Shown here: positions 19,065-60,201 of the stretch, in pieces | Numbering within the stretch: the first letter of the stretch is position 1 | How the letters are laid out: each line of letters begins with the position of its first letter | Assembly (NCBI GenBank): GCA_947172415.1 | Contig: OX359197.1 | Coordinates: forward strand, 6,573,673-6,637,672 | Direction: 5' to 3' | Source of the DNA: Chondrosia reniformis | Lineage: Eukaryota > Porifera > Demospongiae > Chondrillida > Chondrillidae | DNA: 64,000 nt | Program-made: the position numbers and the translations under genes | Notes under the pieces: model-generated | What the model saw: the letters and a program-made list of their open reading frames with translations, nothing else | Told to the model about the DNA's origin: nothing | Databases searched by the model: none

Positions 19065-19372
19065 GTGCAGTCTATTAGCTGTAGTTAACTTTATAACTGA
19101 CTTATATCATATCTACCATCATATGACATTGTAAAATGTATTGTTTTATTTCATTTGAATAATCTTCATAATAGTCAGTTAGGGAGCAGTCTTAATGACC
19201 AGCTGATTTGGTGATGAAAGTATTATTTTGTAATTGGGTAATTACCCATCTATGTAAAAATCAAATACGTACATACTCACTTTATAGTAGAGTTTTGATT
19301 GCATGGCTGCATTATATAAAACGTCGTATGATATATTACTATACTAGTTCTCCAGTTTCAGAAGCTTGAATT
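19065..19372. other. Intergenic between receptors B and C
   Basis: 308 AT-rich bases holding the B 3' end and the C promoter and leader. No further feature is seen. Confidence 0.5.
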
Positions 19373-22011
19373 ATGGATTTGATTGGCATAGCCTTCACAA
19401 TTTGTACTTTATTTTTACCTTGTCTGTCACAGAGCTTAGATGTCTGTAATAATGTTATAGATACTCCGCCGGAATATCCATTTATCCTCGACACACACGA
19501 TACGAACATAAACCTTAGATGTACTTATCATTCTGGAAGCGAAACGCCATACATCAGTCAAGAGAATATAGTTCTTGAGTGGTATAGAAATGGAGAACGT
19601 ATCACCAACGCGACGACAGTAATAAACGGAGCAGAAGTAACTGTTAGATTGCAACTCAATGGAAAAACTGTAGATGGAAATCTTAGTATAACTTTGCGTC
19701 AAAACACTGTTAAGCAAAGGGCTTTGATAGAAAGCAACTTTACCTGTAAATGTAGCGGTTCGAACAAGAAAGGAAATTCTGTTCTAATTGGTAAGTTAAA
19801 GGTATACGTTTATGATCCATATAAATGTAATGAAGCTCGTAATATAACATATCATTTCGCTTTACACATGCAGTGCTACCACAATTAAACGAATCTCTTC
19901 AAAGTGTGTACCTTATTGATATTGGACAAGAAGAAGCAACAACAGCAACCATTTCTAGTCAGATTGAGTTGGGAGCAAATCGTTTGCATCAAGTGTACAT
20001 AACAGAATGGTTTGATGAGTCTGATCACCTCTTAGTCAGATATCCACCTGATGATCCACCATATAGCTTGCCATTATGTGGTGGAGGGAGGTATTGTATC
20101 GATGAAAACTTGGACTTACAAATACATAATGTGACATACAGAGAACAAGCATTCAAACAAACAGTTAGACTTCTTGCAGAAGGAAATAAACCACCTTATC
20201 AAATATCTTCAAAAGTGAAGCTGATTCCATACAGTGAGTTAGAATAGAGTATGCATTTTAAGAGACTCAGATATACGTATAATATGTCTCCATGCCTACA
20301 TATACAAATAGACTATATGCATTTCACTGTGCTTTGTATCATATCTAGTCAGTGTGTATGATTGAAGTACAATTATTAACAGATTGTCCATTATTCTGCT
20401 ATCCAGTCCAACCCAAAATTAAGGACCAACCTTCACAACCAAGTCACAAGTACATAATATTTAATGGCAGTAATAGCAATTTCTCGCCACTCAATTATAC
20501 TACCACAGTATATCCACAGTCTTATTTCAATGCAAAATGGCTGCTCAATGGTACTGTCGTTCAGCAGGACACTTTCATTCCAATGAATGCTACAACTGTA
20601 CAAGATCCACTCCATCAACCAGTACTCAATCATGATCAGATCAGCCAAACTAAGGAACTGACCATATTCAATGTGACATACAGTGCAGTTCTGAGGATAC
20701 CTGGAGATGGCCCAGTGACTAAGGATGTTTACAGTGAAGACAACAGAACTGTACTTTATCATGTCCTTCCCTTTGGTAAGTACATAACAGGAAGCTTCCA
20801 GTCACAATCATTTAATCTGATCTTTCGTGTGTTTTGTTGATTTATACAGAGTAATAAATATGAAGGTATTTTAACTGTTTTTGACTAAATTATTTAGATG
20901 AGACAGACTTTACAGTGACATATGAATGTCTTGAGAACCAGAAGAATGAAATTAAAATGATAATTGAGTATCTAAAGCAAATACCTGTTCAATTCCCATT
21001 CAAAGTTTGGTTCTCTGTTATAAGAGAAGGGGAGACTAAAAGATACAGTAGGATTGGGGAAAATGGTACAGATATACAAACAGAGATATATGAACTTGAT
21101 GAGAGTGTCTCAAGTGGATCACGACTTCAAACAACAATTGTGTTTAGTAGCGACAACCAAGAAGTGAGAGTTGGTTCCACTTATAAGGAGTATGAAGACA
21201 TTGGTTCTTGTAAGTTGAAGATCTAATGAGATATACCGTACATCAATACAGTGGATTCTGTGTGAACAATCACCTGCAGCTCTTTGAGATATACATATAT
21301 GTATGTACATACTAAGAATATACCTCAAATCCATATACAGTATAATATGTCCCTGTCCATTTACATGTACCATGTCACATTACTGTACAATGCATCAGAT
21401 AATAATGTATGAAAAAACATTTGTTGACCGTATACTTTAATACCATATAACAAAGTTTATTATATTATGTATGTATATCTTATATATAAGATAATTACAA
21501 GGATCTTCCTCTCTATATATATATATATGCTCTAGGTCCTGATCATGAACCAGCTCATTTGGAACTCATAATTGCTATTCCTGTTGGAATGGTGTTATTG
21601 CTAGCAGCAGTAATAATCATCATTGTTATATCATTGTGTGCAGTAAAGTATCAAAACAAGTCTTCATCATTAGCTGCAGCAGTAGTCTCCTCATCAAAAC
21701 AAAATGGAGTTGACAGTACAAGAAGTAAATTTGAACAAAGTAAAATTCCAATAGGTGTAGAAAATGAAGCAGTTGGCAATGGAAATGGACATGCTACACC
21801 ACCACAGCTTATGAGTAATTCTATAAGATCAAGTGATTTTGCCAATAACTTTCAACTATTCACAAAATCATTTTTTAATACTGAAAATGAGAATAAATCA
21901 GAATCTATAAATAGCAACTCTGGTGATGACATCATCTCCATATCTCATTATCCATCATTCTCAGAGAGAAAGAAGACTAGTGACATTGACACTATACCAC
22001 ATGAGTGTTAA
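19373..22011 (+). CDS. Receptor C: Ig-like single-pass membrane protein
   Basis: Exons 19373-19790, 19874-20233, 20407-20775, 20898-21209, 21536-22011 give 644 residues, all junctions phase 1. Exon 1 joins a signal peptide (ending CLSQS) to a V-type Ig domain with INLRCTYHSGS, VLEWYRNGE and SNFTCKCSG. Exons 2 and 3 each look like a further Ig-like domain (TEWFDESD with CGGGRYC; NAKWLLNGT), and exon 4 is a beta-rich membrane-proximal domain I do not recognise. Many NxT/S sites are present. Exon 5 has the TM helix (GMVLLLAAVIIIIVISL) and a tail with NGNGHATPP and DDIISISHYPSF, matching receptor B. The ectodomain is nearly the same as receptor D's. Confidence 0.85.
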
Positions 22012-23324
22012 GCATACATTAATTAACTTGCATATATACGTACATAGTAAAGTTTAAACTGATTTAGTATTTGGATCATTATTAACATGACATGCATAAT
22101 ATTATACGTTTGCAATTATTTGACAATGAATTATATATATTTATATAGTAAGTTAAATTGCTATCAAGTGATACTATAGAGAGATGTTTAATGCCCAACT
22201 TCTATATATATGTAGATTGAGAACAAGTGAACACTTTATATGCATCAATGATTTATATTTACATATACAGTAGCTATGGTTCTTTCCTTCTATGTACATA
22301 TATATACGTATATATGATTCTTAATTTATCACAAAATATACTATATTGATATATACACGTAAATTTAAATAGCAATATTAAATATTTAATATGGTAAATG
22401 TAGGGATTCACAACATTTAACTGTATTATACCTCTTGAGAGGTGGGGCAGGTGTAGGGATATATACGTACATACCCATACTCCAAACAACAAAGTGGGGA
22501 TGTCAGGTACATGCATGTAGTAAAAGGTACTATTGTAGGGACTTTTATAGCTAAAACTTAAGGTAAAGGGTAATTTAGAGTATTCTCTGCATAAATTTGA
22601 AATTTGCTAGCATGCAATTGCAAGTGACACTACCTGTAAATAAAATGCATATTTCAGTCCCCATCTATAGTGAATATATATATATGCACACATAGGTCAA
22701 TCACCTATATAGGCCTTACTAACAAGGTATATTTGATTAGCAATCCTTATTATATAATCTATCATTAAGGTGAGAATCTGATTCAGTAATTATAATTGAA
22801 TGTTTTGACTATATATATTTCAACAGCAATAACAATTTTTAAGTATAATACTCTATATTGATTGATATTGATATATAATTGATTATTCTATATATATAAA
22901 GACTCTAGATCTGGTGCAATTGAACAGATATACAATTCACATTAATGGTAATGTATTATTATAACAATTGCATATATATACTGGCACTATATATACCTAG
23001 AGTTATTCAAATTATAAAGTAATGTAATCACTTCTTCAATCAATCAAGCCCTCCTATTTATAGGAGGGCTGACACTGTTAGCCACTTTAATTTACAAGGG
23101 TATATACCAGCATTTCTTGTCACATTATATACTCACAGATTTTAGCATTAAGAAATGCGTTTCTGATTTGGTGTTATACAGTCTATTATAATGTATCACA
23201 ACACTGCCTCGATATGACGTCATCGTTTGTTACCTAATTAATTATGCAATGTCATGTACATAAAAATCCTGTAATAAAAACTCTTGTTGCCCAGCACTAG
23301 TGCATCCAGTATATTTGAAGTAGA
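22012..23324. other. Intergenic between receptors C and D
   Basis: AT-rich, with many TATATA tracts and no supported gene. A small hairpin, AGCCCTCCTA/TAGGAGGGCT, lies near 23046-23069. The region should hold the receptor D promoter. Confidence 0.5.
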
Positions 23325-26175
23325 ATGATTTTAATTAGCAAAATCATCACTATCTGTATTTTTCTACAATCTTGTCTGTCGCAGAGCTTAGATGTCTGTA
23401 ACAATATTACTGATACTCCACCGGAATATCCATTTATCCTCGACACACACGATACGGAAATAAGCCTTAAATGTTCTTATACTTCTGGAAGCTTCACACA
23501 ATACGTCAGTCAAGAGAATATAGCTCTCGAGTGGTATAGAAATGGAGAACGTATCATCAACGCGACGACAGTAATAAACGGAGCAGAAGTAACTGTTAGA
23601 TTGCAACTCAATGGAAAGACTGTAGATGGAAATCTTAGTATAACTTTGCGTCAAAACACTGTTAAGCAAAGGGCTTTGATAGAAGGCAACTTTACCTGTA
23701 AATGTAGCGGTTCGAACAAGAAAGGAAATTCTACTCTAATTGGTAAGCTATAGAGGCGATATTTTCCCGAGTCGCAAGATGTCCAAATTATTAGCTTAGG
23801 CAACTTTGTATATGCATCTCCCATCATCAGTGGTAGAGTACACTGTAAAAGTCTATAGCTATATTCGAATCATTATCTATACATACTGCATGAAAAATCT
23901 ATCACGATCGCAACAAATAATCCTTATCATTTCATGAAAAATCTGATACACCATTTATGGTACAAGATCATTTTAGCAGGTGTTGATGTGATTTAAATAT
24001 TGAATTAAGCTAGACACTGTCAGAGGATAAAATTGAATTAAGAGCTCAGGTTGGCATGTGTTGTGCATGGTTGGTTTGTATTATATTGAGTCGAGTAAAA
24101 TTTGATGAGGAATATATACGGTTGTTAGGATAAAGCTTTGATATGGCAATATATAGCAGTATAGCATAGTATGACAAAACGGATTCTCTTGGAGATAGAT
24201 ATGATTAAACTGGGAGGCACCATACCCTAAAACTTTGAATATATTTGTATACTCCAATCACTTAATAAGTATACACCACAAGGTGTATAGAATATATATA
24301 GTGAATGAGCATGGATGATATATATAGCAAATCCATCAATTATTAAATGTATCATTTCGCTGTACACAGTGCTGCCACAATTAAACGAATCTCTTCAAAG
24401 TGTGCACCTTATTGATATTGGACAAGAAGAAGCAACAACGGTAACCATTTCTAGTCAGATTGAGTTGGGAGCAAATCGTTTACATCAAGTGTACCAGACA
24501 GAATGGTTTGATGGGTCAGATCGCCTCTTAGTCAGATATCCACCTGATGATCCACCATATAGCTTGCCATTATGTGGTGGAGGGAGGTATTGTATAGATG
24601 AAAACTTGGACTTACAAATACGTAATGTGACATACAGAGAAGGTGCTGAACAAGTGTTTAAACAAAGAGTTACAGTTCGTCTAGAAAGATATAGACCACC
24701 TTATCAAATATCTTCAACAGTGAAGCTGATTTTATACAGTAAGCTAGTTTTGCATGGAATATATATGAAAAGCTACTTGCCGCATATCATACATAGGACA
24801 GGTAAATAACATGCTTTAAATTTCAGTTTCTGTTATTGTACATACATATGAGAGATCAAGAATAAGACAAAAATTCCCAGGGTCACTTATGTAGGTTGGA
24901 ATTCCCAGAAACAGCTGTGGAGAATAGGAAAAGTAGAAGGAGAAAACTCCTTGTATCCTCGCCCAAAACTCTCACTAGGTATATAGGCCTTAACTCTAAA
25001 CTGACATAGCATGCAAGAAAATTAGTGTGTATTAGATTACTGTCTTAAGTTGCATTGTATACATATATGTACTTGTAGAAATGCTTAAGATATAATATAT
25101 GTAGTTGCCAATTTTTCTGCTATCCAGTTCAACCTCAAATTAAGGACCAACCTTCACAACCAAGTCACAAGTACATAATATTTAGTGGCAGTAATAGCAA
25201 TTTCTCGCCACTCAATTATACTACCACAGTATACCCACACTCTTATTTCAATGCAAAATGGCTGCTCAATGGTACTGTTGTTCAACAGGACACTTTCATT
25301 CCAATGAATGCTACAACTGTACAAGATCCACTCCGTCAACAAGTACTCAATCAGATCAACCAAACTAAGGAACTGACCATATTCAATGTGACATACAGTG
25401 CAGTTCTGAGGATACCTGGAGATGGCCCAGTGACTAAGGATGTTTACAGTGAAGACAACAGAACTGTACTTTATCATGTCCTTCCCTTTGGTAAGTCCAT
25501 AACAGGAAGCTTCCAGTCACAATCATTTAATCTGATCTTTCGTGTGTATATACAGAGTAACAAATATGAAGGTATTATAACCGTTTTTGACTAAATTATT
25601 TAGATGAGACAGACTTTACAGTGACATATGAATGTCTTGAGAACCAGAAGAATGAAATTAAAATAAAAGTTAAATATTCTAAGAAAATACCAGATTCAAA
25701 ACAATTTGCATTCAAAGTTTGGTTCTCTGTTGAAAGAGAAGGCGAGATTAAAAGATACAGCAGAATTGGGGACCGTGATGTACATGTACAAACAGAGATA
25801 TATGAACTTGATGAGAACATCTTCAGTGGAGTATGGCTTCAAATAATAATTGTGTTTGTCAATGACAACCAAGAAGTGAGAAGCAACTCAACTTATAAAG
25901 AGTGTAAATCCTGTGAAATACAGGTAAAAAATAAACTCTCTAATAGCACCAACATTAATGGGATGCAGTTAGGGAACGGTGGTACATCTCTCCTGATATC
26001 TGTTTCAACCTGTAGTGCTGTGCTGATACTGGCATTAATTATTGCAACTTTACTAGTAACAATATGCTTTTTGAGGTTACATCAGAGAAACCTTAGAAAA
26101 TCAGCTGTTGACCAAAGTGCAATGATGGATCTAGAATCATTCCCTGGTTATGACGCCAATGTGAAGGGACTTTGA
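23325..26175 (+). CDS. Receptor D: paralogue of C with a short unrelated tail
   Basis: Exons 23325-23742, 24370-24738, 25128-25490, 25604-26175 give 573 residues, internal junctions phase 1. Signal peptide (ending CLSQS), Ig domain and the next three extracellular segments are very close to C; the C-to-D differences include GEIKRYSRIG against GETKRYSRIG, and an extra REGAEQVF insert in exon 2. The fourth exon does not stop at C's donor but reads on through a different TM helix (AVLILALIIATLLVTICF) and a tail of only about 35 residues (LESFPGYDANVKGL). It lacks the shared B/C tail block. This looks like a decoy, adaptor-dependent or differently signalling partner of C. Confidence 0.85.
24851..25030 (+). 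repeat. Interspersed repeat copy (family R1)
   Basis: It contains ATTCCCAGAAACAGCTGTGG and CTGACATAGCATGCAAG, in receptor D's intron 2. One of the longer R1 copies. Confidence 0.6.
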
Positions 26176-34535: not shown

Positions 34536-42856
<8,321 letters not shown>

Positions 42857-46052: not shown

Positions 46053-47380
46053 ATGGATTCTGTATTAGTGCTGCAGATTAATATTTTGTCAACGTTAATC
46101 TCGTGTGAGTTTAGCAGGATCTAATTTACGTTAAACCATTGCTACAGTCTCTTGTATCTCAATCTTAGCAGGAGCTATCGGACAAATGATATCTCCAAGC
46201 GGGCCGGTCGATGTACGGGAGGGAGGTACCGTATCGTTCAACTGTACGAGTGAGGGCTCAACAACGCAAGATATTCTAGTCCAGTTAAATGACTTTTATA
46301 TTCTAGCAAGTCAAAACCTTCTAGATATCACTGCGATTAATGACGGGTCTGCCATTACGTTCGGACCAGTAACGACAGATCACGTTGATGGGCGGCTAAG
46401 ATGCGATTTTGTTCTACTACCAATGGGTGGTAGGTACTCTAATGAGATAGTTTTAAACGTCTTAAGTAAGTATGCCCCCGCCAACGTTACCATTTTTGCA
46501 GGAATGCAGTTTATGTGATATTCTTTACTTTTTCAGTTTCTCCAGTCGTCACTCCCAATTCTACTGACACAACTGTGGTAGAGGAGATGGCTTTGGATAT
46601 TCCACTGACCATCACTGGAAATCCATTTCCATTAAGCACAAATGCTGCTATAACTAAAGATGGAGTCACAGTACAGGATGACAGGATTACTGTTAACATT
46701 GGGAGTGGGAATGGAGCATCTACCTTTAGGATACAAAATGTTATTCGTACTGACAGTGGGTCTTATACACTAAATGTGACTACTACTGTAGGAAGTGGTT
46801 CGGCTGTCTTCAACTTGGATGTGCAGTGTAAGTGTATCAGATTATTGCATGGTCTACTGGTACATAGAGCTGTGTTTATGTTAAATGATCAGACTATGTA
46901 ATAATTTATGTAAAAAAGAATTATACATGTTACTTAATAATCTATTTCCGACAGATAAACCAGAATTTGCTTCAGTTCCTCCAAGTATGCAAAGTGTTAA
47001 AGCTTCTAATACTTTCACATTCAACTGTACTCCATCAGCTGCCAACCCTCCACCTAGTAGTTATGTGTTTGAGAGAGATGGAGCAGGCATCACAGAAGGA
47101 GTGGGTGGACCCGTCTTAACTGTCTCTTCTCTCCAGAGAAGTGAAAATAGTGGAAATTACACTTGCACGGTCACTAATGATGTTGGAAGTGTTACTATAG
47201 CAACATATGTAAATGTTCTTGGTGAGCTAGTTAATAGAATACAATAATTATTGTTGCTTGATGGACTACATTTATACATGACATTGCGTAGCTCCTACCA
47301 CTGCTCCGAGACAGCTGATCATGATGTCAGCTTTCAAAACTTTGAATTCTAAAATTATCAACGAATTCTATATATGCTAA
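46053..47380 (+). CDS. J1: truncated Ig-domain duplicate, possibly secreted
   Basis: Exons 46053-46104 (signal peptide MDSVLVLQINILSTLIS), 46169-46465, 46537-46827, 46955-47221 and a short last exon 47292-47380 give 331 residues. The three Ig domains match J2 almost base for base (for example NSTDTTVVEEM, FTFNCTPSAANPPPSSY, SGNYTCTVTNDVGS). The last exon starts like J2's first FN3 exon (TAPRQL) but departs after about 35 bases and stops (...NEFYIC). No TM helix remains. It is either an expressed soluble receptor, an alternative 5' part spliced into J2 exons (all phase 1), or a decaying duplicate. The acceptor at 46168 was chosen because the next AG would create TGA at the junction. Confidence 0.65.
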
Positions 47381-47475
47381 AACCAAGCCCAATCATGCAT
47401 ATGGTAAATGACCCGAGTCGTGTATGTGGCCGGGGCGGGGCTATTCAATCGATTTTCAGGTGATCCCCATTAGCC

Positions 47476-49959
47476 ATGAATTCTGTATTAGTGCTGCAGA
47501 TCGTGTCAACGTTAATCTCGTGTGAGTTTAGCAGGATCTAGTTATCGTTAAACCATCGCTACAGTCTCTTGTATCTCGATCTTAGCAGGGGTTATCGGAC
47601 AAATGATATTTCCAAGCGGGCCGGTCGATGTGCTGGAGGGAGGTACCGTATCGTTCAACTGTACGAGTGACGGATCCGTACAAGAAGATATTCTATCACA
47701 ATTTAACAGATTAGATATTTTTGCCAATCAAAATCTCTTAGTCGTCACTGCGATTCCTGACGGAGCCGCTTTCACATTCGGACCAGTAACGGTAGATCAC
47801 GATGGTGGGCGGTTGAGATGCGACTTTATACTCTTGCCAATGGAAAGTAGATTCACTGATGAAATAATCTTAAATGTCTTAAGTGAGTTATATATATTAG
47901 GAACCATCTGTTTTGAAATAAATATAACATTGATCAATATTCTTCTGGATACACTTTTCAAACTTCTGTATTTTTCAGTTCTTCCAGTCGTCACTCCCAA
48001 TTCTACTGACACAACTGTGGTAGAGGAGATGGATCTGGAAATTCCACTGACCATCACTGGAAATCCATTTCCATTAAGCACAAATGCTGCTATAACTAAA
48101 GATGGAGTCACAGTACAGGATGACAGGATTACTGTTAACATTGGGAGTGGGAATGGAGCATCTACCTTTAGGATACAAAATGTTATTCGTACTGACAGTG
48201 GGTCTTATACACTAAATGTGACTACTACTGTAGGAAGTGGTTTGGCTGTCTTCAACTTGGATGTGCAGTGTAAGTGTACCAGATTATTGCATGGTCTACT
48301 GGTACATAGAGCTGTGTTTATGTTAAATGATCATGATCAGACTATGTAATAATTTATGTAAATAAGAATTATACATGTTACTTAATAATCTATTTCTGAC
48401 AGATAAACCAGAATTTGCTTCAGTTCCTCCAAGTATGCAAAGTGTTAAAGCTTCTAATACTTTCACATTCAACTGTACTCCATCAGCTGCCAACCCTCCA
48501 CCTAGTAGTTATGTGTTTGAGAGAGATGGAGCAGGCATCACAGAAGGAGTGAGTGGATCCATCCTAACTGTCTCTTCTCTCCAGAGAAGTGAAAATAGTG
48601 GAAATTACACTTGCACGGTCACTAATGATGTTGGAAGTGTTACCATAGCAACATATGTAAATGTTCTTGGTGAGCTAGTTAATACAACTGCTGCTTGATG
48701 GTCTACAATCACATGTACATCACATTGCGTAGCTCCTCCCACTGCTCCGAGACAGCTGATGTCCGCCGTTAGTGGTGCATTCACTGTTGTTCTCAATTGG
48801 GACCAACCATTGGATAATGGAGGATCTAGTCAACCTCTTTTGTATTCTGTGAGAGTCACTAACGACACTTTTAACATGTCATTCAACTCAACATCAACCA
48901 GGTTGACCTTAACTATGGGCAGTGGAATATGGCACAGCACAATGTATACTGTGACAGTATCAGCTGAGAATGAATATGGAATTGGACCTCCATCAGTTAC
49001 TGATTTTACTACAGTAGACTCGAGTGAGTTTGTATATACCCGTTGTGTGTTGTGAGGTGTACATTAATACAGTGTGTGTTTGTGGTGTATGTAGCTCCGA
49101 TAATTGAGAGTATTTCCACTGAATCACTCTCCCTCACTCTTTCACTTGATGTTGTCTTGTTGACTGACGGAGGAAGAATGGTGGATAATTACACTGTAAG
49201 TGCAGATTTATTGACAGCATTTCAACTTTTGTTGACCTGTGCATTCTCCCATTATAGATTGCGTTGACTTCCAGCAGTAGCAGTCAGTACAACACTACTG
49301 TCATCATTGTATTTAGTGACATTGAGAGTCCATTTAGTGTTCCAGTTTCTCAAGGAGAGACCTACAGTGTGACAGTCACTGCTGCTAATAGCGTCGGAGA
49401 GAGTGACCCTGTCACAGCTACAACTGTTACATTGGAGCAGCCAGGTGAGAAGTGGTGTATATATATAATCCAAGGTTATTCTGTGTGATATATACTGTAT
49501 GGCATTGTTCATTAGTTACACCTCCTGATGAGACAAGTAACACAGTGGGTGTGGCAGTGGGCATGGTGCTAGGAGGATTCCTCTTTGGAGTGCTAATTAC
49601 AGCAGCTAGTATGATTGGAATATACTTTTGTTGCATTAAGTGTTGCCATAGAAACAGTGAGTAGAAGTTAATTAGTATAATGATTATGTTTTGACCGCTT
49701 CAACTAAATTATAAGGTTTCTGTAAAAATTACTGTTCAAATAAGCTTTTTAATATTACATGTGATATCCATGTGCAGACAGTCATTACAGTGTCAACAAG
49801 ATGTCAAAAGAGCAAGAGACAGTTTATGAAGAATGTGCCCTCAAAGATGTGAAAATTGAGGCTAATCCATCTTACGGTGTACCACCTCAACTGGTCAGCT
49901 CAGGCAGAGAACAGAAAGGTCAAAGTGCAAAGGACTCGAAAGAAACTGAATACCTATGA
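47476..49959 (+). CDS. J2: three-Ig, two-FN3 single-pass receptor
   Basis: Exons 47476-47521, 47586-47882, 47979-48269, 48403-48669, 48733-49023, 49095-49195, 49258-49444, 49516-49656, 49778-49959 give 600 residues. Order: signal peptide (MNSVLVLQIVSTLIS); Ig1; Ig2 (RTDSGSYTLNV); Ig3 (NFTCT-like core, GNYTCTVTN); FN3-1 (LNWDQPLDNGGSSQPLLYSV); FN3-2 split by a 62-base intron. The TM helix follows (GMVLGGFLFGVLITAASMIG), then a Cys-rich inner edge (CCIKCC). The roughly 65-residue tail has SHYSVNK, VYEECALKD, NPSYGVP and a C-terminal TEYL. The Ig-Ig-Ig-FN3-FN3-TM layout resembles cell-adhesion receptors. YEEC resembles the Src SH2 preference YEEI, and NPSY is an NPxY PTB or endocytosis motif. 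Confidence 0.9.
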
Positions 49960-50439
49960 AATTGTTTTATACGTTGACTAGAACCATAAATGATATTTCT
50001 TTGATTTATCAATATTTATGCTTTCTCTGTGTATTTATAAACCATTCCAGTCACTGAATCTGTTTCAATATGTATAAATAAGCAATAAACTATTCAATGC
50101 ATCAATTATATAATTGCTGGTTCTATTATTTTGCTTGATAATGCTAGGATTATAGTTCATATTCAAGCAATGAATAAGTATGTCATGCGTGATGTTATTT
50201 ACTGAGGGGCAGTGTAATATATATAGCAACATTGTGTTTGCATAGTCGAAGACCTTTCTATAAAGGTTATATTAATTATGCAAATTGCAATTATTTAAAA
50301 TGGCGGTGACGATAAATTTATTCACTGCCAGTTTTCCAATTGGTAGTCAAAGTGTATAATACCCAGGAAATATCTGTTCGGTTTGTCTGCATTTCTGTCG
50401 AGAGTTTAACCAATTTATCAAACAGGTCTGCGAAGCCCC
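49960..50439. other. Intergenic between J2 and K
   Basis: J2's 3' UTR (AATAAA near 50083) and K's promoter. No other feature is seen. Confidence 0.5.
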
Positions 50440-52874
50440 ATGATGCTGTGTCGTGTGCAACTGATATTTCTTGTAGTCTGCATTTATACAAGTAAACATG
50501 GACTGTTGATATTATACGCTGCAGGTAAATACTACCCTTTCGTCTTCTGTCCATCTATTTAGTGTCACTTGAAATATGTTCCGCAGAGGTGGTCTTTACG
50601 AACCATTCTACGGATGATGTGATAGTTGTAATTGGAGGATCCGTTCAGTTCCACTGCAGCGCCACGTCTGATGGTACTATAACACCAGTCACCTGGGGAA
50701 TACAGACAGTCGGTTCGGGAGCTCCTGATATTTTTCTAAGTAACAAAACCTTTAGAGATACATCCACTTTCGTGAGTGTCGGAAGCGAATTTCGTTCTCC
50801 TCTGACTCTGACGAACGTATCTAAGGAGCTGGACGGAGCAACAGTGTTTTGTAGAGCATCGGATACTTTAGTAGTGCACCTGCAGCCGCAACCAAGACCT
50901 GTAATTACAGTTCTCTGTGAGTCAATCAGTAGAATTGATAGATATATGCATAACAGTTAAGAAGGAAAGATTAATATTTCACCAAAATAACATTATATAG
51001 GTCCACCCAACATCACCGCAGATTCGACTATGGAAAGTTCTGTGGAAGGAGCAATGTTGACTTTCCGTTTCTTGATTAGCAATACACACCCTAGCAGCAA
51101 CCTCACAGTAACTAAAGATGGACAAACTGTTAGTGGAGGAAGAATTAACATTGATGGAACAGGCTTGACAATCAATACTGTGAATCGCACTGACAGCGGA
51201 AACTACACCATCATGGTGACTACATTAGCTGGGAGTGACTCCATCTCATTCTATTTAGATGTGTACTGTGAGTTTATATACAAACATTATTATAGGGATT
51301 AGTATTATTTTTCTCCCATCAAATTAGATTTGGCAGAGTTTTCTAACTTTAGCAGAGTTGAGGAGATTGTACAAGGAAACAGTTTCACATTCAACTGTAC
51401 TCCATCAGCTGCCAACCCTCCACCTAGTAGTTATGTGTTTGAGAGAGATGGAGCAGGCATCACAGAAGGAGTGAGTGGATCCATTTTAACTGTCTCTTCT
51501 CTGAAGAGAAGTGAAAATAGTGGAAATTACACTTGCACGGTCACTAATGATGTTGGAAGTGTTACCATAGCAACATATGTAAATATTCTTGGTGAGCTAG
51601 TTAATACAACTGCTGCTTGATGGACTACAATCACATGTACATCACATTGCGTAGCTCCTCCCACTGCTCCGAGACAGCTGATGTCTGCCGTTAGCAGTGC
51701 ATTCACTGTTGTTCTCAATTGGGACCAACCATTGGATAATGGAGGATCTAGTCAACCTCTTTTGTATTCTGTGAGAGTGACTAACGACACTTTTAACATG
51801 TCATTCAACTCAACATCAACCAGGTTGACCTTAACTATGGGCAGCGGAATATGGCACAGCACAATGTATACTGTGACAGTATCAGCTGAGAATGAATATG
51901 GAATTGGACCTCCATCAGTTACTGACTTTACTACAGTAGACTCGAGTGAGTTCCTACCTGTTGTGTGTTGTGAGGTGTATGTGAATATAGTGTGTGTTTG
52001 TGGTGTATAACTCCGATAATTGAGAGTATTTCTACTGAGTCACTCTCCCTCACTCTTTCACTTGATGTTGTCTTGTTGACTGACGGAGGAAGAATGGTGG
52101 ATAATTACACTGTAAGTGCAGATTTATTGACAGCATTTCGACTTTTGTTGACCTGTGCAATTCTCCCATTAAAGATTGCGTTGACTTCCAGCAGTAGCAG
52201 TCAGTACAATACTACCGTCATCATCGTATTTAGTGACGTTGAGAGTCCATTTAGTGTTCCAGTTTCTCAAGGAGAGACCTACAGTGTGACAGTCACTGCT
52301 GCTAATAGCGTCGGAGAGAGTGACCCTGTCACAGCTACAACTGTTACATCGGAGCAGCCAGGTGAGAAGTGGTGTATATATATAATCCAACTGCTACTCC
52401 ATGTGATATATACTTTATGGCATTGTTCATTAGTTACACCTCCTGATGAGACAAGTAACACAGTGGGTGTGGCAGTGGGTGTGGTGCTAGGAGGATTCCT
52501 CTTTGGAGTGCTAATTACTGCAGCTAGTATGATTGGAATATACTTTTGTTGCATCAAGTGTTGCCATAGAAACAGTGAGTAGAAGTTAATTAGTATAATG
52601 ATTATGTTTTGACCGCTTCAACTAAATTATAAGGTTTCTATAAATATTACTGTTCAAATAAGCTTTTTAATATTACATGTGATATCCATGTGCAGACAGT
52701 CATTACAGTGTCAACAAGATGTCAAAAGAACAAGAGACAGTTTATGAAGAATGTGCCCTCAAAGATGTGAAGGTTGAGGCTAACCCGTCTTACGGTGTAC
52801 CATCTCAACTGGTCAGCTTAGGCAGAGAACAGAAAGGTCAAAGTGCAAAGGACTCTGAAACTGACTACCTATAA
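50440..52874 (+). CDS. K: chimeric Ig/FN3 receptor with a lost splice acceptor
   Basis: Exons 50440-50524, 50563-50916, 51001-51267, 51328-51591, 51655-51945, (52011-52111), 52175-52361, 52434-52574, 52696-52874. With all of them it would be 622 residues. Signal peptide MMLCRVQLIFLVVC; Ig1 and Ig2 are diverged from J2. From about base 51383 inside Ig3 to the end it is almost identical to J2. The acceptor of the FN3-2 first half reads AA at 52009-52010 where J2 has AG, so that exon probably cannot be joined normally. Skipping both FN3-2 pieces joins 51945 to 52434 in phase 1 and keeps the TM and tail. Tail motifs YSVN, YEEC, NPSY and TDYL are retained. Confidence 0.8.
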
Positions 52875-54678: not shown

Positions 54679-57600
54679 ATGACCGATCGAGAAGTCCCAA
54701 ACCTAGACTCAAGTTAGTGCCTGAGAATCAGACGATATAAATTTGTCCGTAAAGTCGAGTTTTGTCACTTTAAATGTATTAAATAATCACAGCGGAACGG
54801 ATTAATTTAGGAAGTAGATCATATTTTGAGGAATCGACTTTGATTGTAAGAGTAAAGAATTCGAAGTACTATTGATACTTCATAGTAGATACAGTCAGAG
54901 TATATGTGGTCTGTCAATATACGTAGTTTGTCCATCTAGGCTATAAAAGTTCATTTCTGGAAATCCATAGATCTAGTCATCTAGCTGTCCATGTTACTTA
55001 CAGTTCATGTATCATTGATAATTCTTTTAGTGCTAACACCTGAGGAAGAGATTCCCTACTTTCAGGATCCAGGTATGTCAATTTGATACAGCATGGGAAA
55101 CCTAATTTAAAATTACTTTCTTTTTGTTGTATGAACCATGCATGCCAAGAAATTGATGGTAAAATAAAGAGAACAAACAATTAAAATTTCTACTGTTCTT
55201 ACTTGTATATTCAGCTGTTCCGCCAAAGGAGGAATCTCAGCCACCAGCTGCAGGTATTTTGTATAGCCTCTCAGTAACCATGCTAAGCCTTATATGAGAG
55301 ATGTGCATGTTTCTAGATCCAATTATCAAATCAGCTACTACTAATAGCACCAAGACATCTGAAAAAGACAAATCTACTCAAGTAAGCTTAAGGAAATATA
55401 TGCATATGTGATATGTTGTGTTTGCTAGGTACGTATTTAACCTTTAAATGACTGCAAGTAATTAAGCTTAGTAACTTCTTAATATATTATATTATATATT
55501 GTTGTTATTATCATTTAATATATTAGGAATCAACCAGTAAATTTGTTCCAGACAAAGGCTCACTAACGTATGATATGGTAAGACCGGGTGCCACTGGTGC
55601 TTCAGATGAAGGCTCTGTTAAATATAAGCGTGCTCAATCTTCAATGCCTATAGCTAGTGAGTACGTGCACATTTACAGTTTTAGTGATTATCTGAAATTG
55701 TCTTAAATTACATGTTTTACTTTTATAGATGAACCTTCTGAAGCCTCTTTTCCTTTGCAACCTGATGTTATATCTGCACGTATGTCTCCAATGTTGTGTA
55801 TTATTGTACTTTGACCCCACTTGCATGATGTATTTCTCATTTTAATTGTATAGCTGCCCCTAAAGAAGAACCAGGTCCACCCAGAATTAAAAGTCAACAA
55901 GAAGAAACACAGCATGATAGACAATCAGGTTAACATTATGTATAAAGAATGTAGACAACTTGAGAGTAGTACTGTACGTAGGAGTGAGAATGCCTATTAG
56001 TTTAGTAGCTTAATAGGCTATATACAACCAACTACTGCATGTACTGTAACTAATTTAGTTGTCAGTACAAGAGATCCCTTTTAATTGGAATTGTCTACAT
56101 ATATAATATGGTGAATCTTTAGTATTACTGTGTGCACATCTCATGTATTAGCAACCGGTCAAGCTAGGGAAACTAGGGAGCATCTCTTCAATATTGCATT
56201 TTGGATTAGTAGGGAAGATCATATTCAAAAAAATAGTGCTGCTGTACTTGCTATGGATTTGGGTGTTTTTAGCTATTTTCATTCCAAAGCAAAACATTTT
56301 GCATTAGAAAAGCAGGCATTCACCATAATGTGGGAATGGATAAAGGAGATGAAGTTTAACATATCTCAGGATCAATCAACCATAGATGAAATCTTAATTA
56401 ATGTTTTTCTAAAAAGGCGATTCTACCAGACTATAGGGGAAGCGTTTGTGCAAGGTCGTGAAGGTATGTTTATATATTTATTATATTACTATTATTATTA
56501 GAGTGATACGTGTATGTACTTTTTAGAAAGAAACACAAGGCCAAGCTGGGGCCCATGAGTCACTATACATCTATCTATATAGGTAATACATGAATAATCG
56601 ATGTGATAATCAAACCACAAGTAATAATCAATGAAACATCATAAAGAGGGAAAAACACGAAAGAAGCAATTGCTGGGAATTGTAATCGTAATCGTAATCG
56701 TAATCGTAATCAGAAACATGTATGCTCATGGTAATAAAAAAATTAAGTTTTTATGTATAGTCACTAAAAGCCATGCAAGCATAGTTACAATAGTTAGATT
56801 GAAGGCAGGACTCGTGACCTGCAGTCATTATTGGCAAGTGTAAATGAGTCAAATCTGACGGGTCTCCCTTGACGAGATCTGTCTCCTCTGATTGCATTGA
56901 TCGAGGATTTGAGGAGGGCAAAGTTGATCTTGATGCGAATCCATGAGATCACCTGACCATATGGCTCACCTCGCTTCGCTGAGATCAGGTCAGCCAGATG
57001 CTTGTATGCCACTGCTGTAGACTTGCTCGTCCCTCCAAAGATCAAGAAGACAAGGGGAGTGAAGGAGCTCATCTCTACCTCTCTGATGCATTCTTCATAC
57101 TGCCTACGCTTTCCCCGCTCTTGCAATCGGTATACTGCTTCCAGGGAGGAGTTGCGATAGCTTTGGGCAGTTGGATTGCAGATCCTTACGTCAAAAAATG
57201 CCCTTTGACTATCGTTCTATGACGTAATAACTTTTTCTCTATACATGTGTGTACTGTGCTGGCTTAGTATTATTATTATATTATATATAAACATGTATGC
57301 TTAGTCTCTAATATTATTAATCAGCTGCTATACGTATATATATATATACAACTCTTCATCTTCATCTGCTGGACTTTCTGAGCTTAATAACAAATCACAT
57401 TGTTACATATCTGCATAGGGTTCCAACTTCATATTCAATCATTTTGATTAAAGTTATCAATCATTCCTAAGAACATTTCTATCATTATGTAATATGGTTG
57501 AAGTATCATCTGCAATTGAGGGACTATATATCCTCACAATTGCTGTAGTCTAGCCTATATATTACAAGATGTAAAGAAGGTTATAGGAAGATTATATATA

Positions 57601-60201
57601 TATGTGTATACCTTTGGTATATATGAGGTTCATTATCCATTGTTGTTTTTGTTTTATACAGCCATTATTGCAAATATAAGAAGTGAACCTCAGTATGGTA
57701 TGTATCTTTGCATGTATACCGCTAACTCTAGTTAGAAGACTTATTCAGTTGGCCACTGTTAGCTTTTGATTGACCTTCCTATATGACAGGTTTATAGTGT
57801 TAAATAGAAAGGTTAAGATGCTATACTATCCTTATTTCTTTGGTGTCCTCAGATTATTATAAGTTTAAGAAGCCAACAAATGCAATAGAAGTTAGAGGAA
57901 CAGGTGTTAAGTTTCGAAGTTAGTAATTGGTACCAGTCTTATCATATACATACCATATACGTACTTCCAGAAATATTATTTGATATGAGTGTCTTGTATA
58001 TATTGTGTGTCACTATAGTACATGTAAATGGACAGTGAAGCTGCAGGCTGTAATTTATTATTGTCGTTTTGATTTTTGTTAGTTGAATTGAACAAGCATG
58101 TAGAAGAATATCAGAAAAGGTATCCCCAAACACAAAGAAGAATAGATGGATCAGAAATGCCCCCAATTAATGGACTATTATCAGTATCCCTTGGCATAGG
58201 GAAAACATATTTGTAAGTAAAATCATAGTACAATAGAACTTATCTGACCCCCCTGTGTTGGTAGTACACTGGAAAGAATATTCAGATACATCACTGAAGT
58301 GAAGTAATTCTTCTACAAATGGCTAGTAAATTATACCCTATACTGTATTACAATAATGTGTATACATTATTCTTTAGCTAGAAAAGAAGTTCATCATGGC
58401 CATTCTCTTTTGCCAGCTTTCCATATCAATTATGTAAACATAGCACTTCTACTGTTCTAGAACCAATTTGCTTCATGTAGAGCATTTTCAAAATAGGGTT
58501 GCCTATTTAAAAAAGTCAACGACAATTTAGAATTAATTTGTATGTGTGAATGCTGTACAGAATTGTAGTTCTAGCACTGTTTCATATTTTTAGTATTACA
58601 GTGCATACAACACAGTAATATAACTTATTTTTAATATTACTTAGAAATGGAGTTGGATCTGGTACCTGCTTCTTCATAGAACTACCAGGAAAGCAATTTG
58701 TACTGGTAACTTGCTGTCACAACATATTATCAAAGGAGATGGGCAGAGCATATAAGTACAAAACTACTACAGAGTCTAAAGTTTTAGAAGCTATCAAGGA
58801 GAATTTTTCTAACTTGAAGATTAGAGTGCCAAATCAGTCATTTGCCTTTGATTCTGCACGTAGGGAATATTCATTGGATCAAATCTGCAGTAAATGGCCT
58901 GACCCTCTATTTCATGCAGTTAAGGTTAGTACAGAATATATCCTGCATAAGAGTCTGCCTATACTTTAGTCACCAAATACCTTTGAAAACAAAGTATTTT
59001 TACATTGCAAATCGGCCACTACATGCATAAAGATTTCCTAGGTACGTATATGATGTATATGTAATTCAGATTCAAATATTAGAAAATGAGTCTATTTCTT
59101 ATTTATATGAAACTTGCATTATTATAATATTCTCTATGTATGGATATATGTATATCTATTATACAATATGCAGGTTGCTGATATGATTGGGATAAAAGTT
59201 AAGGATCCGAAAGAATTTGGGTCAAATGTCAACCCTATGCCAGTTAATCCCGAAAGGTATAATGAAAAGAATGGGCCGCTTGTGGCATTTGGCTCTTATA
59301 TCATGATAGTTCAGTGCCCTGACACTTATGTGAGACATTCTCAGGGAACTGTAGTGGAGTGTGAAGGTAAAGTTTCAGCTCAGCAGTATACACATGTATA
59401 TATGTGTGATTACCTTTTGAATTATCAATATATATACTCCTGCTTGATGTTGTTGCATGCATGATAATAAGGGAGTCAAATTAATCTTTTTAAGTTTTTA
59501 TTCAGGAAGCTAAGTACGTACATGCACAACTATAACCTTATCCCTCATATATCTGGACGTTTACAATCTTTCAACTCAATTTTAATGGTTATATATGTAT
59601 ATACCATAGCTATATGGTTTTATGGTTATGATATATGTACGTATAATATATAGACCTTTAGGAAGGAATTTAAAGATGATGCAACCAGTATGCCTACCAT
59701 TAATTGCATGCTATGCTTATAAACCTAATTGCATCATACTATACAAAATTGACCAATCTAAAAGGAAAAGTGATTCACAGCAGAATAATAGTTGCCATTT
59801 TATATAGAGACTTAAGGGTTAGACATAAGTCTGTACATCTCTAGTTTCTATTTTAGTCATCAATTTGATTGTGTGATAAAAGTGAGCCAAAGAATTATAT
59901 ACACAATAAAGGTTAGGTATACAGTTTAGATAACTATAAGCATAAACAAATCAAAATGTGCAATACATAGAATTACTATACATTTTAATTTAAAACATGT
60001 TACTTCATGGCTATAGGAATTCGAAGAATTGGATACGATTGCAGCACTGAAAGTGGATCATCTGGAGCGCCTATACTGTACAACTCTGAGCAAGATTGCA
60101 TTGTGGTTGGTGTTCATACAAAATACGATAACCCTTTGAACTACGGAAGCCTGCTTACCAAGTCATTTCTTGATAAACTGATGGACTTAAATAAACTATA
60201 A
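54679..60201 (+). CDS. Death-fold domain fused to a trypsin-like serine protease
   Basis: Fourteen exons: 54679-54712, 55031-55072, 55215-55253, 55317-55381, 55527-55656, 55729-55779, 55854-55928, 56152-56463, 57662-57697, 57853-57918, 58083-58212, 58645-58924, 59174-59366, 60017-60201. They give 545 residues with every phase matching. Residues 1-145 are a disordered Pro/Glu-rich linker from many tiny phase-1 exons. About 146-249 is an all-helical domain of death-domain type (EKQAFTIMWEWIKE, STIDEILINVFLKRRFYQTI). From about 325 is a trypsin-like peptidase: GVGSGTCFFIEL, the His block VLVTCCHNIL, and the Ser block STESGSSGAPILY followed by VVGVHT. The Asp of the triad is not certain. The Ser block recalls FAM111/HtrA-like peptidases. 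No signal peptide, so intracellular. Confidence 0.8.
56681..56711 (+). repeat. (TAATCG)n microsatellite
   Basis: About five copies of a 6-base unit in the intron after the death-fold exon. Confidence 0.85.
56794..57190 (-). mobile_element. Reverse-transcriptase-element fragment (C-terminal part)
   Basis: The minus strand encodes QERGKRRQYEECIREVEMSS, FTPLVFLIFGGTSKSTAVAY and KINFALLKSSINAIRGDRS, preceded by NPTAQSYRNSSLEAVYRL. This is the pattern seen downstream of the reverse transcriptase in non-LTR elements (re-worked RExxKRRxYxxRxxxVE, sFTPLVF and LLRS...RGsR blocks). Only this piece is present, in antisense inside the protease gene's intron. G+C is higher than in the surrounding intron. 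Confidence 0.65.

Follow-up and report, generated by a model that had tools for sequence, protein, structure and literature searches.

We read a gene in a 64,000-nucleotide stretch of the genome of the sponge Chondrosia reniformis (the window, C9:6573673-6637672, where C denotes the chromosome), with slightly better than even confidence, as encoding a cytosolic death-fold-gated serine protease. It would be one member of a sponge family whose proteins end in a PA-clan protease, preceded by a conserved linker and, ahead of that, by one or two death-fold domains. Three paralogues on chromosome 11, denoted C, E and F, carry a Pfam Death domain and the same protease in one chain; therefore the pairing of death fold and serine protease is a repeated design of this genome. 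The pairing is not unique to the window gene, as the paralogues of the array carry it too. In our judgement the finding extends from this single gene to an array of putatively death-fold-gated serine proteases.

Gene structure and protease domain

Independent rebuilding of the window gene gave 14 exons (Table 1) joined by 13 introns, all GT-AG, with phases that close on the stop codon and a product of 540 amino acids. The phase-consistent 14-exon gene of the initial annotation was thus reproduced, and its residues 146-249 coincide with exon 8. Trained on the open frames in the sponge's own genome, a crude gene finder recovered ten of the exons with both ends exact (2-9, 11 and 12), and for the remaining four (1, 10, 13 and 14) one end differed; false exons were also appended, from flanking genes and from the repeat in intron 8.

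Table 1. Features of the putative death-fold/protease gene, in window positions.
Feature	Position	Strand	Remarks
Whole gene	54679..60201	+	14 exons, 540 amino acids; 10 of 14 exons exact by gene finder
Exons 1-7 overall	54679..55928	+	Pro/Ser/Glu-rich N-terminal part, probably disordered; composition from translation
Exons 1-4	54679-54712, 55031-55072, 55215-55253, 55317-55381	+	
Exons 5-7	55527-55656, 55729-55779, 55854-55928	+	
Exon 8	56152..56463	+	Phase 1-1, 312 bp, residues 146-249; helical, putative divergent Death-type domain
Intron 8 repeat	56732..57216	.	Many copies across the genome
Exons 9-10	57662-57697, 57853-57903 (span 57662..57903)	+	Short linker exons, phase 1-1
Exon 11	58083..58212	+	Phase 1-2; pre-protease linker common to paralogues
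Exon 12	58645..58924	+	Phase 2-0; protease, catalytic His347 at 58718-58720
Exon 13	59174..59366	+	Phase 0-1; protease, presumed catalytic Asp418 at 59180-59182
Exon 14	60017..60201	+	Phase 1-stop; protease, catalytic Ser495 at 60061-60063 in GSSGAP

Exons 12-14 match Pfam Trypsin_2 (PF13365) over nearly the full length of the family, with expectation values (E) of 6e-4 for the whole protein and 5.6e-5 for the domain alone; at 24.3 bits the latter lies under the curated cut-off of 27.6, and the whole-protein match is also below it. A six-member profile, built from the window protease and five array proteases and searched against PDB structures, returned glutamyl endopeptidases (best E 7.9e-5) and Spl proteases (1.4e-3). 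The histidine and serine blocks named in the initial annotation were found in place, TCCHN at residues 344-348 and GSSGAP at residues 493-498, and the triad His347, Asp418 and Ser495 stands in order and in aligned places. Asp418 is presumed to be the catalytic aspartate from the alignment and from the HtrA-type pattern. Judged from the sequence, exons 12-14 specify a serine protease of the PA clan in which the triad is present.

The highest hydropathy over 19 residues is 1.14 and the N-terminus is hydrophilic, without a hydrophobic stretch; therefore the protein should be cytosolic. The intracellular location proposed initially agrees with this lack of an obvious export signal.

The last protease exon is duplicated 11 kb downstream (C9:6644694-6644861); the copy is 61% identical and has kept GSSGAP, and no upstream exons were detectable for it. 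Over 52 codons the proportion of nonsynonymous differences between exon 14 and the copy (pN) is 0.25 compared to 0.78 for synonymous ones (pS), the synonymous distance being saturated, so the protease has been under purifying selection. The copy adjoins a minus-strand frame rich in a QPPAIN/QPQAIN repeat.

A paralogue array on chromosome 11

A tblastn search of the genome with the window protein led to C11:230685 (E 3.1e-4). Across the surrounding 69.5 kb (C11:215001-284500) related protease genes are arrayed in tandem, some of them having lost catalytic residues, and further members were located at C11:210 kb, 377-401 kb and 2.445 Mb. Models reaching from the death exon as far as the protease, each on one strand, were made for C (C11:235522-238950, trimmed manually at the 3' end), E (from C11:260319, with a manually placed 3' end) and F (C11:265286-269782, the complete gene-finder prediction). 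Their Pfam Death matches of 32.4, 25.3 and 26.8 bits exceed the cut-off of 22.6, and Trypsin_2 in the same chains reaches 17.7, 21.7 and 18.1 bits, below 27.6. Each of the three has a second death-like exon, which is without a Pfam match of its own and scores end-to-end z values of 5.2-5.5 on the Death profile described below (0 of 150 shuffles as high).

The window protein joins this family by homologous linker and protease and by matching intron phases (alignment A1, six sequences). The phases of the linker and protease exons (1-2, 2-0, 0-1, 1-) are common to the window gene, C, E and F, and the protease phases are identical in two array models near C11:377 kb and 400 kb. In each of C, E and F, both death-type domains occupy one exon of phase 1-1 apiece, as in the window gene; at 312 bp, exon 8 and the second of these exons in C are equally long.

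This family structure bears on the question of whether the window gene is one gene at all. It could be divided into two transcripts, one of exons 1-8 with a short tail and a separate protease gene starting in exon 11 or upstream, which we regard as improbable. Intron 8 comprises 1198 bases and holds the many-copy repeat (among 50 listed matches, 24 others span most of it at 90-97% identity), exon 11 offers a Met (residue 304), and with a harsher intron penalty the gene finder makes a split within intron 8 and misses exons 7 and 9-11. Because of this split, which counts against our reading, the single transcript is a proposal from phase and paralogues. On the other hand, the phases join across introns 8-10, exon 11 starts in phase 1 and therefore within a codon, and in C, E and F the death exon, linker and protease follow one another on a single strand in matching phases. 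The repeat itself looks like a retroelement.

Dead members exist in the family, because in alignment A1 His is lost in two of six sequences and Ser in one. There, His is kept in 4/6, the presumed Asp in 3/6 (window, E and F) and Ser in 5/6. Gene C is without the His, and the model C11:246782-251173 is without His, Asp and Ser but keeps a Death exon at C11:247803. Such losses allow the window protein to be seen as a catalytically dead regulator as well, a pseudo-protease serving as brake or decoy like some members of the array; with His, Asp and Ser retained in aligned places and exon 14 under purifying selection, we consider this very improbable.

Further features of the array were noted. A model on the minus strand (C11:381094-377138) has two CARD-looking exons ahead of an intact-looking protease with the same phases; it gave no Pfam CARD match, and its first domain found no support in the PDB. 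The CARD label for array exons was assigned by eye and not adopted, the two Pfam CARD matches being weak and below cut-off (E 0.011 and 0.088). Three near-identical copies of a roughly 200-codon exon (KDLCWLPLGINNIQVNT...) lie at C11:221880-222469, 227043-227632 and 242411-242923, followed by a second repeated exon; the only Pfam match was DUF6717 for one copy (E 0.008).

Exon 8 and the proposed mechanism

The helical domain of exon 8 had been called death-type initially, and only a part of the tests agrees. The own-genome Death profile was built from 40 Death exons of the sponge. Aligned end-to-end to it, exon 8 reached z 2.57 (2 of 300 shuffles as high; reversed sequence z -0.32) and, on one of three Death profiles in a second run, z 2.45 (8/400), and the invariant Trp of helix 4 is retained (alignment A2).

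Several results weigh against a Death assignment. A Pfam scan of the window protein gave no Death match for exon 8, so that it lacks the Pfam Death match which C, E and F have in chain, and NCBIfam yielded no match for any of three queries and no profile match for the exon. In local hmmsearch with the 40-exon profile, exon 8 scored 2.1 bits, at line 107 in a list with 2000 shuffles and at line 237 in one with 5000; with the second death-like domain of C, E and F it stood at line 3558 of 4960. In hhalign comparisons with three profiles, 30, 41 and 143 of 150 shuffles scored as high. Two other Death profiles gave lower end-to-end values (z 1.83 and 2.16, with 20/400 and 11/400 shuffles as high). 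Nine of 157 decoy segments matched the score of exon 8 on the 40-exon profile; five of these are Death exons and a sixth is a frame that looks like Death, and the others comprise a CARD-like exon and two unrelated segments, three of the nine thus not being Death. Identity to the death domains of the paralogues is 10-17%. The structure prediction suggested in the initial annotation was carried out with AlphaFold without relatives for two boundaries, giving four helices at a predicted local distance difference test (pLDDT) of 48.2 and 48.3, values too low to be of use in judging a six-helix bundle. A search for exon 8 copies elsewhere in the genome found only the exon itself. Two other identities were tried and rejected: SWIB, the best Pfam match, lies below cut-off (E 0.11) and has no other backing, and on a CARD-like profile exon 8 aligned end-to-end stays at z -0.78, a score equalled or exceeded by 302 of 400 shuffles.

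The absence of profile matches, the local hmmsearch and hhalign scores at shuffle level, the low identity and the location of the gene alone on chromosome 9, apart from the array, would all suit a helical domain of other origin, or a death-fold domain degraded beyond function, in a gene that has left the death-fold pathway of its paralogues. We consider this rather unlikely, since exon 8 matches the death exons of C, E and F in chain position, single-exon structure, phase and length class, fits Death but not CARD-like exons above most shuffles, and retains the helix-4 Trp. Taken by itself the exon is at most consistent with a divergent Death domain; the death-fold label is probable, mainly by the position of the exon in a family having the pairing. 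The claimed pairing of death fold and serine protease is accordingly supported in part, through paralogy more than through the exon's own sequence.

On the reading as a death-fold-gated protease, the most likely course would be recruitment through the death fold, clustering and proximity activation. An upstream death-fold sensor or adaptor would oligomerise and recruit the window protein via a homotypic contact with the exon 8 domain. Recruitment would crowd the protease domains and free them from autoinhibition, and the freed proteases might then cleave one another, or a protein further downstream, as part of an immune or cell-death response. The idea of a death-fold-activated protease in immunity or cell death, raised in the initial annotation, fits this course.

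Known systems and genome context

Textbook death-fold signalling in animals ends in caspases or kinases. In initiator caspases a DED or CARD prodomain gates the protease, and caspase-8 has an inactive relative, cFLIP. The sponge family resembles them in a death-fold prodomain before the protease, with gating as a proposal, and in inactive paralogues beside active ones; in contrast, initiator caspases are C14 cysteine proteases whereas the sponge protease is a PA-clan serine enzyme, and caspases are present in the sponge genome too (19 matches at E 0.001). Active and inactive members side by side would offer a caspase-8/cFLIP-like comparison in another protease clan, and the sponge may possess, in a serine protease, its own equivalent of the death-triggering caspases.

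Trypsin_2, glutamyl endopeptidase and Spl proteases are secreted bacterial or HtrA-type enzymes not known to carry a death-type domain. Judged from the matches above, their fold and catalytic blocks are as in the sponge protease (PF13365; PDB 4jcn, 4k1s), which differs in its predicted cytosolic location and its N-terminal helical domain.

Fusions of death fold and trypsin have already been described in bacteria (PMC8195603, PMC13236601). Kaur et al. 2021 (PMC8195603) reported bacterial death-like domains, bDLD1 and bDLD3, fused to a trypsin-like peptidase. Like the sponge family, these examples combine a death-superfamily adaptor and a trypsin-like effector in one chain, with a predicted defence role; they are operon-linked with MoxR-vWA or STAND parts, whereas the sponge gene is a multi-exon animal gene in a paralogous family. 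For Amphimedon, TRADD-N proteins were listed with caspase, PNPase and HD effectors, and no trypsin (PMC8195603, section 10). Bacterial CARD-NLR systems with a CARD-trypsin-like protein, namely LypA and the Lysobacter system of Wein et al. 2025 (PMC13236601), likewise place an N-terminal death-superfamily domain before a trypsin-like serine peptidase, which drives cell death there. LypA additionally has an ATPase domain at its C-terminus and a partner gene that is NLR-like; the sponge chain is without these and ends at the protease. Trypsin-like proteases also activate pro-nucleases in bacterial immunity (PMC12799240). An animal Death-trypsin pairing was not recognised in the open-access literature (titles, abstracts and passages), a search that leaves subscription papers and animal sequence databases outside and does not establish absence from print.

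More tentatively, and with clear doubt, sponges may possess a second, caspase-independent death-protease system, that is, a growing tandem family of trypsin-like proteases gated by Death or CARD domains, with active members beside inactive decoys. It would be the animal counterpart of the anti-phage systems in which bacteria join CARD or death-like domains to trypsin, and the window gene would be a dispersed, active member of it. If true, a trypsin-like end point in a sponge would link animal inflammasome-type signalling to those bacterial systems, and whether the Death-trypsin pairing was inherited, acquired or invented twice would become testable.

The genome contains at least 150 Death exons (150 of 220 candidates scored), many clustered on chromosomes 2, 10 and 13. 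Gasdermin was sought as a substrate, and the genome gave no match to Pfam Gasdermin PF04598, which also speaks against the proposed mechanism. For relatives of the window protein, 29 pattern matches in prokaryote genomes yielded none confirmed, and none were found in viral contigs. Weak protease similarity to the PADLOC entry LmuA was found for the window protein (E 1.6e-4 over 27 residues) and gene F (4.1e-5) and not for gene E.

Elsewhere in the window, two sets of tandem receptor-like frames with long near-identical stretches occupy 19370-26172 and 46135-52579, Ig- and Fn3-looking by eye only. Exons at 40860-42853 were read by eye as an SH2 domain followed by a tyrosine-kinase-type domain.

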